64,000 nt of DNA from Natrinema sp. CBA1119 (lineage in GTDB: Archaea; Halobacteriota; Halobacteria; Halobacteriales; Natrialbaceae), in the NCBI RefSeq assembly GCF_002572525.1, contig NZ_PDBS01000001.1:682001-746000 (forward strand). Direction: 5' to 3'. Below the pieces are notes generated by a model. It saw only the letters and a program-made list of their open reading frames with translations. It was not told where the DNA came from and did no database searches. This document shows positions 55,450 through 59,203 of the stretch, piece after piece. A program made the translations under genes and the position numbers. The stretch's first letter is position 1, and each line of letters starts with the position of its first letter.

Positions 55450-55775
55450 GCGCCGCCTCGAGTCGTCCCGACTGCGAATCGATCCTTACGTTTCTCGCCG
55501 CGATGCCGTCGGAGACTCGTCCTCGAATCAGTGGTATGGGTACCGATCGTTCGAGCGACGGATCGATCGCGTTCATAGCGGCTGGGTCCCACCGCTCCCG
55601 ACGGACGAGGACGGTTACCGAAGCTACCAGCACCGTCCGATCGTCACTATATGAATCAATAGACCCACATACTATTCGTAGTACTCCTAGATATAGTATT
55701 ATATAAAATCCGTTAGTTCACCACCATATTACTATTATAAAATCTGACTATGCGACGGTGAGTTGCGCCACTCGC
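55450..55775. other. Intergenic region, AT-rich at its right end, promoter of the phosphatase operon
   Basis: No gene is supported. The right 130 nt are strongly AT-rich. A TATA-like ATTATAAAA near 55734-55742 lies about 34-42 nt before the phosphatase ATG and gives a short leader; an earlier TATA-like TTATATAAAAT near 55700 is an alternative. No obvious palindrome is seen. Confidence 0.5.
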
Positions 55776-58394
55776 ATGGTCGAATTTACCAGACGGAAGC
55801 TGATGGCGACGTCAGCGGCGACTGCGATCGGCATCGGAGCGATCGGAACGGCGAGCGGGGCCGACGGCGACACCCCGGGTGCGCCGACGATACGCGGAGA
55901 TCTCAAACGGCTCGCGACCACGGCTCGCGGAGCCGAGGTCACCGGTCCGTTCGTTTTCGAGAACGGCGAAGTGCTGTTCAGCCTCCAGCATCCGAGCCGG
56001 GACAACCCGGGTCCGTACGACACGGCCGCTGTTGGCGTCCTCGCGGGACACCGCTTCGAGTTCAACGGGAAAAACGACGAGTTCGACGAACTCGAGCCAC
56101 CCCGATCTGCGGACGCACGGGGGCGGGTACAGGTCGCCGGCGGCGAGTACGACATCCTCGTCCAGGAGGGAGAGCCGATCGGCGACGGCGACGCGAAATG
56201 GGGCCATCCCGAAACCCCCGACGGGACGGACATCGCCGAGTTCGCCGGCAGCCGGTACGGCGACGTCGGCTACAACCCCGACATGAACTTCTTCGTTCCG
56301 ACCGACGGCGAGGAACTCGAGGGATACCTCTTCACGAACAACGAGACGAGTCCCGGCGCGATCACGCGGACGCCGATCAGCCGCGACGACGACGGCTGGG
56401 AGGCCGATCCCGAGAACGCCACGAACCTCGAGAACCTCGAGGCGTTCCGCGAGATCGGCGGGACTCGGATCAACTGCTACGGCGATCTGAGCCCCTGGGA
56501 GACCCCGATGTCAGCGGAGGAGGACTACAGTCACCCGCGCGTGTCGGGACCGGCGACCGTGAGCGATGTCGTCGACGCGGAGAGCGGCGTCGGGATTCGC
56601 GGTGCAGCGCCGTTCTGGAACCGACCGAACCCGACGGAGATCGCGGGCGAACTGGACGAGTTGTTCGACGACGGGTGGAGTCCGCAGGGAAGTTGGGCCC
56701 TCAGTGGCGTCGAAATGCTGGCCTACTACCTCGGGGCGGATCCGGTCGATCAGGACGGCGACATGAACACGCTCGAGCCGATCGGGGAGGGCTACCCGAA
56801 CCGCTACCGGTACGGACACATCGTCGAGATCACCGAACCCGCGAACGACGAACCGACGCCTGTCAAACACCACGTCATGGGCCGGGCCGCCTTCGAGTGT
56901 CCCGAGTTCATGCCCGACGAGCGGACCGTCTACCTCTCGTCCGACGGCGCGAACAAGGGCCTCTACAAATTCGTCGCCGAGGACCCGATCACGAGCTACG
57001 ACGACCGGATGGACGTCCGCGGGACGCTGTCCGCCGCCCGCGTGACCAACGACGAGGCCGCGAAGAATCGCCCGCCGGCCGAGGTCGACCTCGAGATCGA
57101 GTGGGTCGAACTCGGCACCGCGAGCAACGCCGAGGTCGAGTCCTGGATCGCCGACTACGACGACGTCACGCAGATCGACTACCTCGAGACCCACGCCGAG
57201 ACCGACTGGGAAGACGATCTCGAGACCGCTCTCGCCGAGGCCGACGAGACGGTCGCGATCGAGGGTAATCGGGACTACATCACCGACGAGGACGTTCTCG
57301 AGTGGGCTCGACAGTACGAGGAACGCGGCCCCGACGGCGTCGACGAGGACCTGCGCCGCGTCCCCTTCCTCGAGACGCGTGCGGCTGCCAAGGAGATCGG
57401 TGCCACCATCGAGTTCCGCAAGGCCGAGGGGATCGACTCGCTCGACGACGCCGAGCCCGGTGATTTCCTCTACATCGGTATCTCGGAGCTCAACGACGGC
57501 ATGACCGACGACGAGGGCGATATTCGGCTGGACCGCGTCGACGGCGGCGTCGTCTACCGGGCCGAACTCGAGTCCGACTACGACGTGTCGACGCTCGAAC
57601 CGGCGGTCGTCGGTCCCGATGCGACCGACTCGGCGTCGGTGCTCGACGCCGCGCCGATCAACGTCGATAACGTGATGGTCCTCGCGGACGGCCGCGTCCT
57701 CCTCTGTGAGGACAAGGGGAGCTTCGGCCGCTCGTATCCCAACGACGCGCTGTGGGTCTACGAGCCGCCGACGTCGCTGCACGTCGACTCCGTCGCCGTC
57801 GGTCAGGGGGAGACAGGAGCCGTCGATCTGACGCTCTCGTCGGTTCCGGACGGCCTCGCCGGCGGTCGCGTCACCGTCTCGCTCGAGCACACCGACGTCG
57901 CCGAAATCGCGGGTGCAACGTACCACGACGCGCTCGAACTCACCGCCGGCCCGACGATCAGCGACGACGGATCGGCGGTCGCGTTCAAGTTCGCCGATCT
58001 CGACGAGGAGATCGAACCCGGCGCGATGGACGTGACGCTGGCGAGCGTCGAACTCGAGGGGGTCGGGACCGGAACGACGGATATCACGGTCGACGTGCAG
58101 GCGCTAGACGACGACGGAGTCGCTATCGAACCTCAGCGCCGTCCCGGCGTGGTGGTTACCGGGCCACCACCGATCGGCGGGCCGGGCGGTTCCAGCAGGG
58201 CACCGACAGATCCGGACGGCGACGGCCGATTCGAGGACGTCAACGGCAACGGCCGACTCGACTACAACGACGTCGTCTTGCTGTTCGATCACATCGAGGA
58301 CGACTCGGTGACGCTCAACGCCGACGCCTACGACTTCAACGAGAACGGCCGCATCGACTACGACGACATCGACGAACTGTACGACGAGCTGTGA
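55776..58394 (+). CDS. PhoX-type (DUF839) phosphatase with C-terminal cohesin and dockerin domains
   Basis: The 872-residue protein has a twin-arginine signal (FTRRKLMATSAATAIGIGAI), so it is exported folded. Residues 40-665 resemble PhoX/DUF839 phosphatases (GDLSPWETPMSAEEDY, VKHHVMGRAAFECPE, YLSSDGANKGLYKFVAED, VMVLADGRVLLCEDKG), which hydrolyse phosphomonoesters with calcium and iron. Residues 668-795 are a cohesin-like sandwich (PDGLAGGRVTVSLEHTDVAE ... GTTDITVDVQALDDDG). Residues 812-872 carry two dockerin-type calcium loops, DVNGNGRLDYNDVVLLF and DFNENGRIDYDDIDELY. Such a fusion is unusual. It is 5 nt upstream of an anchored cohesin gene. Confidence 0.85.
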   Translation: MVEFTRRKLMATSAATAIGIGAIGTASGADGDTPGAPTIRGDLKRLATTARGAEVTGPFVFENGEVLFSLQHPSRDNPGPYDTAAVGVLAGHRFEFNGKNDEFDELEPPRSADARGRVQVAGGEYDILVQEGEPIGDGDAKWGHPETPDGTDIAEFAGSRYGDVGYNPDMNFFVPTDGEELEGYLFTNNETSPGAITRTPISRDDDGWEADPENATNLENLEAFREIGGTRINCYGDLSPWETPMSAEEDYSHPRVSGPATVSDVVDAESGVGIRGAAPFWNRPNPTEIAGELDELFDDGWSPQGSWALSGVEMLAYYLGADPVDQDGDMNTLEPIGEGYPNRYRYGHIVEITEPANDEPTPVKHHVMGRAAFECPEFMPDERTVYLSSDGANKGLYKFVAEDPITSYDDRMDVRGTLSAARVTNDEAAKNRPPAEVDLEIEWVELGTASNAEVESWIADYDDVTQIDYLETHAETDWEDDLETALAEADETVAIEGNRDYITDEDVLEWARQYEERGPDGVDEDLRRVPFLETRAAAKEIGATIEFRKAEGIDSLDDAEPGDFLYIGISELNDGMTDDEGDIRLDRVDGGVVYRAELESDYDVSTLEPAVVGPDATDSASVLDAAPINVDNVMVLADGRVLLCEDKGSFGRSYPNDALWVYEPPTSLHVDSVAVGQGETGAVDLTLSSVPDGLAGGRVTVSLEHTDVAEIAGATYHDALELTAGPTISDDGSAVAFKFADLDEEIEPGAMDVTLASVELEGVGTGTTDITVDVQALDDDGVAIEPQRRPGVVVTGPPPIGGPGGSSRAPTDPDGDGRFEDVNGNGRLDYNDVVLLFDHIEDDSVTLNADAYDFNENGRIDYDDIDELYDEL

Positions 58395-58399
58395 GGCGG

Positions 58400-59203
58400 A
58401 TGGAACGACCGGACACCGATTCGGCCACGACCGCACGGCGGGGCCGAACTGACGAGTCGGCTTCGATCAGGTGGCCGAGATCACGGCGACGGACGGTGAC
58501 GGCGCTCGTCGTCGGGCTCGTGGTCTGTCTGGCAGCCCTTCCGGCTCCGATCGCGGCCGCCAGCGAGGGCCCGCCGTCCGTCTCCGGTGTGGACACCACA
58601 GCGACGACAGCGGCCGAGAGCACGCTCGTCGTCAGCGATTCGACAGTCGAGCCCGGGACCACCGCGACGCACCGGATCGCGCTCACCGACGCGCCGGACG
58701 GCCTCGCCGGCTTCGAGTTCACGCTCGAGCTGTCCGGCGACGCCGCGACGGTCTCGAACGCCAGCTATCCCGACGCGTACGGGCTGACGACCGACCCGAT
58801 CACGAGCGCCGACGGCCGATCGGTGACCGTCGAGGCCGCCGACCTCACCGACGAAGTGACGTCGGGCGCGACCGATGTCACCCTCGCGACCGTCGAGGTG
58901 AACGCCACCGAGACCGCGACCGGTTCGACGACGCTGCGAGTGGCGGAGTCCCAGGTCGACGCCGACGACGGCAGCCGCGTCGAGCCGACGCTCGAGTCGG
59001 GGACGCTCACCGTCGGCGAGGACGGACCGGAAGCCGCCTCGGCACAGAGTGAGGGAACCGGATCGGCGGACGAAACTGCATCCGATGGAGCAGACGAATC
59101 CGATAGATCGGATTCGTCGGAACCGGTTCCCGGCTTCGCCGCCGGATCGGCGATCGGTGCGTTGGCCGTTCTGGCGGCCGCCCTGCTCGCACGGTCTCGC
59201 TGA
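58400..59203 (+). CDS. Surface-anchored cohesin protein with PGF-CTERM
   Basis: The 267-residue protein has a cytoplasmic basic stretch, an export hydrophobic segment (residues 31-53, RTVTALVVGLVVCLAALPAP), a cohesin-like domain at about 75-205 that aligns with that of the upstream phosphatase (PDGLAGFEFTLELSGDAATV, GATDVTLATVEV), a Thr/Ser/Asp-rich linker (likely glycosylated) and a C-terminal VPGFAAGSAIGALAVLAAAL with PGF at 244-246 plus a hydrophobic helix and basic end. That is the PGF-CTERM sorting signal, processed by archaeosortase A and lipid-linked to the membrane. It starts 5 nt after the phosphatase stop and should bind that protein's dockerin. Confidence 0.82.
   Translation: MERPDTDSATTARRGRTDESASIRWPRSRRRTVTALVVGLVVCLAALPAPIAAASEGPPSVSGVDTTATTAAESTLVVSDSTVEPGTTATHRIALTDAPDGLAGFEFTLELSGDAATVSNASYPDAYGLTTDPITSADGRSVTVEAADLTDEVTSGATDVTLATVEVNATETATGSTTLRVAESQVDADDGSRVEPTLESGTLTVGEDGPEAASAQSEGTGSADETASDGADESDRSDSSEPVPGFAAGSAIGALAVLAAALLARSR

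Follow-up and report, generated by a model that had tools for sequence, protein, structure and literature searches.

To our knowledge, assembly by cohesins and dockerins is known almost only for the breakdown of polysaccharides, and the purpose of the modules scattered through archaea has been a question since those of Archaeoglobus fulgidus. Here we describe a gene pair of Natrinema sp. CBA1119 (GCF_002572525.1, contig NZ_PDBS01000001.1, forward strand, 682,001–746,000; this whole stretch of 64,000 nt is called the window, and all coordinates are positions within it). The first gene encodes an exported PhoX-type phosphatase with a cohesin and a dockerin at its end, and the second encodes a single-cohesin protein with a putative surface anchor. 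We consider it likely that the two genes make up a unit for displaying the phosphatase on the surface and assembling it, in which the enzyme docks on the anchored cohesin and is chained through a cohesin of its own.

Among described systems, the pair resembles AF2375/AF2376 of A. fulgidus, where a dockerin gene of an archaeon likewise adjoins a cohesin gene. ORF2375 was reportedly said by Bayer in 1999 to carry a cohesin as well. The dockerin of ORF2375 (residues 432–506) binds the cohesin of ORF2376 (residues 29–162) strongly and specifically (PMC9705933). Because the A. fulgidus pair binds, a cohesin-dockerin gene beside a cohesin gene is an arrangement of an already known kind, and the view of the initial annotation that a tight enzyme-anchor pair is little studied has to give way to this precedent. 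The cohesin fold is predicted to be the same in both systems, with the binding measured there and expected here. In contrast to A. fulgidus, PhoX bears the dockerin in Natrinema and PGF-CTERM is placed on the anchor protein, and the set is spread over Halobacteria with other phosphorus enzymes.

The anchoring scaffoldins of cellulosomes, such as OlpA of C. thermocellum (3ul4), also hold a dockerin-bearing enzyme on a surface-anchored cohesin of type I-like fold. Unlike them, the Natrinema pair lacks a multi-cohesin scaffoldin, a carbohydrate-binding module and a polysaccharide enzyme, and its putative anchor is of the archaeosortase type, not of the S-layer homology or sortase type. A true cellulosome in Natrinema was rejected, since the genome scan found only two single cohesins and one dockerin, the latter on PhoX. 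Thus the term cellulosome-like, used at first for this locus, suits the proposed mechanism, but not a genome in which neither a multi-cohesin scaffoldin nor a dockerin-bearing polysaccharide enzyme was found. Archaea with cohesin and dockerin domains have been reported to lack large scaffoldins, with up to five cohesins in anaerobic methanotrophic archaea (ANME, PMC9012536). In an ANME-2 metagenome-assembled genome (MAG), a subtilase-cohesin-dockerin gene adjoins a cohesin gene (L141), similar to the present pair; the usual dockerin proteins of ANME, however, are ABC-transporter binding proteins and not a phosphorus set (PMC9012536).

Domains of the two proteins

Gene 1 starts with ATG at 55776 on the forward strand, and its stop codon ends at 58394, giving a protein of 872 residues. 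After a gap of 5 nt (58395–58399), gene 2 runs on the same strand from ATG at 58400 to a stop ending at 59203 and encodes 267 residues. Both frames and their spacing had been given correctly in the initial annotation. The top orthologs of gene 1 in a Natrialbaceae sample of 125 genomes are 81–85% identical over the full length.

The first protein begins with a probable twin-arginine translocation (Tat) signal peptide, MVEFTRRKLMATSAATAIGIGAIGTASGA (55776–55862), recognised from its sequence, and the twin arginines R6 and R7 are invariant across 37 aligned sequences. Residues 30–665 (55863–57770) form the PhoX domain. Most of it is covered by a PF05787 match of 94.2 bits (cut-off 24, E 1.4e-26), and a PhoX-profile search of PDB sequences recovers P. 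fluorescens PhoX 3zwu (E 5e-10), so the PhoX-type core proposed earlier is borne out. C234, E374 and D390, invariant in 37 sequences, align with C179, E273 and D292 of the P. fluorescens enzyme, these being chain positions in an alignment that does not span the remaining PhoX ligands. D292 is listed among the metal-site residues of PhoX (PMC11098088). Gene 1 shares the family and three metal-site positions with 3zwu and is predicted to encode an active phosphatase. The haloarchaeal enzyme differs by its cohesin and dockerin tail, and we know of no bacterial PhoX with either domain.

Cohesin 1 (residues 666–800 of gene 1, 57771–58175) and cohesin 2 (residues 73–206 of gene 2, 58616–59017) are homologous, with 40% identity over 138 residues (E 1.2e-16). 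The Pfam cohesin profile PF00963 matches neither window protein, no cohesin was found by Pfam and NCBIfam scans of the single proteins, and a sequence-profile search of PDB with cohesin 2 found nothing; comparison of folds was therefore needed. Even in the family alignments, PF00963 matches few relatives (4/53 and 5/79, E <= 0.01). AlphaFold (AF2) models built from natural alignments have a predicted local distance difference test score (pLDDT) of 90.9 and a predicted template modelling score (pTM) of 0.83 for cohesin 2, and a mean pLDDT of 90.2 for the C-terminal stretch of gene 1. The cohesin 2 model matches the non-cellulosomal A. fulgidus cohesin 2xdh with a VIA Z of 16.1 and a root-mean-square deviation of 2.2 over 127 residues, and its top PDB fold matches are cohesins almost without exception. 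For cohesin 1, the VIA Z is 15.2 against 2xdh and 15.3 against 1ohz, a complex from C. thermocellum, and cohesins fill the match list of the gene 1 C-terminal model. Both domains are predicted to adopt the cohesin beta-sandwich fold, in line with the cohesin-like sandwiches suspected at first. The matched cohesins are known to bind dockerins, and these two domains may be expected to do so.

A short Pro/Gly linker joins cohesin 1 to the dockerin, which covers residues 808–872 (58197–58391). The Pfam dockerin profile PF00404 (cut-off 22.9 bits) gives a borderline match, with 20.5 bits when the protein was scanned and 24.1 bits when the genome was. The domain contains two F-hand loops, DVNGNGRLDYND (58236–58271) and DFNENGRIDYDD (58332–58367), that fit D-x-N-x-N-G-x-[IL]-D-x-x-D and align with the CelS dockerin (1daq/2mte), and the key loop positions are kept in 24 sequences. 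The two dockerin-type calcium loops recognised earlier are textbook cases. With a family-specific profile, the window dockerin (E 9.9e-32) is the sole match in the Natrinema genome (5.06 Mb, 99.6% complete). By such profiles this genome has two cohesins of this kind and one dockerin, all in this pair. Therefore, barring very different partners, the dockerin uses cohesin 2, cohesin 1 or both, and the choice of partner is nearly forced by the inventory. Binding between this dockerin and these cohesins is predicted, as is its need for calcium.

The gene 2 protein starts with a signal peptide that is probable on sequence alone (residues 1–54, 58400–58561). Behind cohesin 2 lies a spacer rich in Ser, Thr, Asp and Glu (59018–59122), followed by a divergent PGF-CTERM anchor, VPGFAAGSAIGALAVLAAALLARSR (59123–59200). 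This tail, with VPGF...LLARSR, scores weakly and below threshold against TIGR04126 in the window copy. The ortholog at locus L095 passes the same profile with 40.6 bits, and other orthologs are near the threshold. TIGR04281 (E 8e-4) and TIGR04216 also match the window tail with their PGF-CTERM ends, and archaeosortase A (ArtA) is present in the Natrinema genome (TIGR04125, 317 bits, E 1.4e-94). The PGF-CTERM assignment of the initial annotation gains from ArtA and from the passing ortholog, although the window copy itself is divergent. The gene 2 product is a candidate for anchoring at the cell surface.

Proposed anchoring and chaining of the phosphatase

PhoX with a cohesin-dockerin tail occurs in about 44 of the 125 Natrialbaceae genomes, by counts made by hand from match tables, and about 43 of those 44 also have the anchored cohesin (genome G023 does not). 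Tail-less PhoX alone is present in 16 of the 125, none of which has the anchored cohesin. A class-wide scan (E <= 1e-30) of 391 genomes from 84 genera detected cohesin-dockerin tails in 126 genomes, which belong to 40 genera. The pair was seen at named loci of Natrinema, Haloterrigena, Natrialba, Halorientalis, Haloarcula, Halomicrobium and Halorubrum, and likewise of Haloplanus, Salinigranum, Halarchaeum and other genera. The two genes are adjacent in Haloarcula, Halorubrum, Halorientalis, Haloplanus and others, and usually touch or overlap by 4 nt. A chance neighbour pair was rejected because the pair is conserved across Halobacteria families. Every aligned PhoX member has cohesin 1 together with the dockerin, and the cohesin sequence of gene 2 is conserved among orthologs.

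A cohesin tree unites the 45 anchor cohesins from these loci in a single clade (100/98) and places the 50 PhoX cohesins together in a different part. In Archaeoglobaceae and ANME-2, by contrast, the two cohesins of a locus group with each other. The shortness of the domain leaves many forks of this tree poorly supported. The separate placement of anchor and PhoX cohesins indicates that the split between anchor and PhoX cohesins predates these families, and thus that both sockets are old and have been kept.

In the proposed unit, the PhoX enzyme would be exported by Tat and would fold with an iron-calcium site. Its C-terminal dockerin would bind the cohesin of the neighbouring protein with calcium. 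ArtA would fix the gene 2 product to membrane lipid at the S-layer, holding the enzyme at the cell. Cohesin 1 would be a second socket of the same type, and the dockerin of another enzyme could plug into it, so that a chain would extend outward from a single anchor. The chains of relatives could also take in further phosphorus-releasing enzymes that bear this tail. The initial annotation had already suggested an enzyme with its anchor, an idea that fold, conservation, genome inventory and the A. fulgidus precedent all support, and support is found here for each of the two docking sites that it offered, the cohesin on the anchor protein and, for chains, the one within the enzyme. The observation is confirmed, and the mechanism is probable by precedent.

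Five genomes have a cohesin-dockerin enzyme without any other cohesin (G023, Halegenticoccus soli, Halocatena marina, Halegenticoccus tardaugens and Halalkalicoccus paucihalophilus). In these genomes the dockerin would therefore bind only the cohesin of the enzyme, either of another copy or its own. At locus L086, tandem PhoX-cohesin-dockerin genes are followed by one anchor gene. Owing to these five genomes and the tandem genes, we favour a mixed model, in which a first enzyme docks on the anchored cohesin and later ones are added through cohesin 1. The tail probably also chains enzymes together.

Several points weigh against docking and chaining on a surface anchor. Sequence identity to characterised cohesins is about 10–22% in the fold alignments. 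The Haloarcula and Halorubrum orthologs of gene 2 have a C-terminal hydrophobic stretch without the PGF motif, and because of this anchoring may differ there. Nor is anchoring essential everywhere, because the five genomes above have no anchor gene.

These five genomes also suit a scheme of self-assembly only, in which the main partner of the dockerin is cohesin 1 in other copies of the enzyme, giving soluble or S-layer-trapped polymers, as does Natronococcus jeotgali (G087), which has PhoD with a cohesin-dockerin tail and no other cohesin. Gene 2 would then be a minor accessory or a chain terminator. Such a role does not agree with its retention in nearly all family genomes, its adjacency across families and its conserved cohesin, and we regard self-assembly alone as unlikely. 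A dockerin folded onto the cohesin of the same chain, only to regulate or stabilise the enzyme, is also a point against docking on the anchor; the short linker and the joint presence of both domains in all aligned PhoX members would allow it, but the adjacent anchored cohesin and the several enzymes per anchor would be left unexplained, which makes it very improbable. Docking on another surface protein (an S-layer protein or an undetected cohesin), with gene 2 serving another partner, has equally little in its favour, for although cohesins that escape Pfam could be missed, the family-specific profiles find no cohesin beyond the two of this pair and no second dockerin in the genome.

Other enzymes with the same tail

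The anchored cohesin may also hold enzymes other than PhoX, a group that lay outside the view of the initial annotation. A query made of cohesin and dockerin only, without PhoX, gave 111 matches across the class at E <= 1e-57 by a hand count. Of these, 90 have PhoX-sized frames, with PhoX confirmed by alignment for part and judged from frame length for the remainder. PhoD accounts for 9 of the other 21, SNase and choice-of-anchor I for 4 each and 5'-nucleotidase for 2; the last two are a GH5 (glycoside hydrolase family 5) protein and a protein of 230 residues. A GDPD protein with the tail adjoins a single-cohesin gene (L124). Genome G309 has PhoX, PhoD, 5'-nucleotidase and choice-of-anchor I with one common PhoX-side anchor; one such anchor each was also found in G394, with PhoX, PhoD and choice-of-anchor I, and in G168 and G231, with PhoX and PhoD. 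G309, G233 and G168 each have one extra, more distant single-cohesin frame. In the Natrinema genome, PhoX is the sole member present.

The dockerins of these enzymes are 49–91% identical to one another. Against the dockerins on cellulases of Halovivax sp. KZCA124, a genome with both sets, identity is only 27–45%, and the cohesins of the two sets also lie apart in the tree. Extracellular DNA serves haloarchaea as a source of phosphorus, and Haloferax volcanii requires a surface SNase-type nuclease to use it in this way (PMC3929857). That nuclease, Hvo_1477, serves phosphorus gain at the surface as an SNase with the cohesin-dockerin tail might in relatives; unlike the latter, it is a putative lipoprotein, and the text of the paper names no dockerin (PMC3929857).

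The almost exclusive phosphorus cargo, the common anchor, the similar dockerins and the use of DNA for phosphorus suggest a phosphorus-scavenging surface complex. We put forward, as a tentative proposal that could well prove wrong, that the pair is the core of a Halobacteria "phosphosome", in which PhoX, PhoD, 5'-nucleotidase, SNase and GDPD, and also choice-of-anchor I proteins, have interchangeable cohesin-dockerin tails, are linked to one another and hang from the PhoX-side anchored cohesin. Extracellular DNA and phosphoesters would then be broken down stepwise at the cell surface. Membership of the group is predicted from sequence similarity. Among the farther tails (E 1e-31 to 1e-51), the carriers vary more and include 5'-nucleotidase of one genus, PKD-repeat proteins and a GSDH protein. 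The search favours PhoX-like tails because the query tail was derived mostly from PhoX.

The group looks new, whereas the cohesin-dockerin mechanism is not. Literature searches for PhoX with dockerin, haloarchaeal cohesin with dockerin and "phosphosome" returned nothing relevant, which is weak evidence of novelty because most subscription papers lie outside such a search. A phosphorus cargo would give the archaeal modules a testable physiological role, one that fits the haloarchaeal use of extracellular DNA for phosphorus, and the pair would offer salt-stable binding partners for protein engineering.

The two-gene layout was also observed for other enzymes. In one haloarchaeal genus, at six loci (L209, L211, L212, L214, L220 and L224), a 5'-nucleotidase with the tail adjoins its own single-cohesin gene with an anchor-like C-terminus, making it a second enzyme with the same layout. 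At five loci (L126, L129, L135, L152 and L188), the gene of a large SNase-cohesin-dockerin protein adjoins one for a single-cohesin protein that has a membrane helix at its C-terminus.

Further features of the locus and its relatives

A possible TATA-box-like sequence, ATTATAAAAT, recognised from the letters alone, lies at 55734–55743 on the forward strand, about 35 nt upstream of the gene 1 start. The locus from 55776 to 59203 is mosaic-like in comparison with L079 and L084. The PhoX part is nearer to N. ejinorense (mostly 79–90% DNA identity), and the part with cohesin, dockerin and gene 2 is nearer to N. zhouii (82–96%), with the switch around 57000–58000. Enzyme and docking parts appear to be exchanged by recombination independently of each other.

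A cellulosome-like cluster is present in Halovivax sp. KZCA124 (L066, 2858–19916, and L067, 100–4633; C1, about 1620000–1643000). It consists, in order, of a 2104-residue GH5 protein with 10 tandem cohesins, a 262-residue single-cohesin protein with PGF-CTERM, and GH5 and GH10 enzymes with C-terminal dockerins. The literature found names dockerins on such enzymes, and no cohesin or archaeal scaffoldin. This cluster may be a true archaeal cellulosome. In G007 (L068, 673–18709, and L069), a similar cluster has a 1801-residue protein, in which a GH5-like part is followed by 8 cohesins, and a 278-residue single-cohesin protein. In that of G085 (L070 and L071), a protein at the contig edge carries at least 5 cohesins, and a 211-residue protein carries one. 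Many dockerin proteins surround each of these two clusters.

Cohesin-dockerin genes also occur beyond Halobacteria and methanogens, in a Thermoproteaceae MAG (L145) and in a Fraserbacteria MAG (L151), the latter bacterial. At L145, a cohesin gene directly follows the cohesin-dockerin gene.

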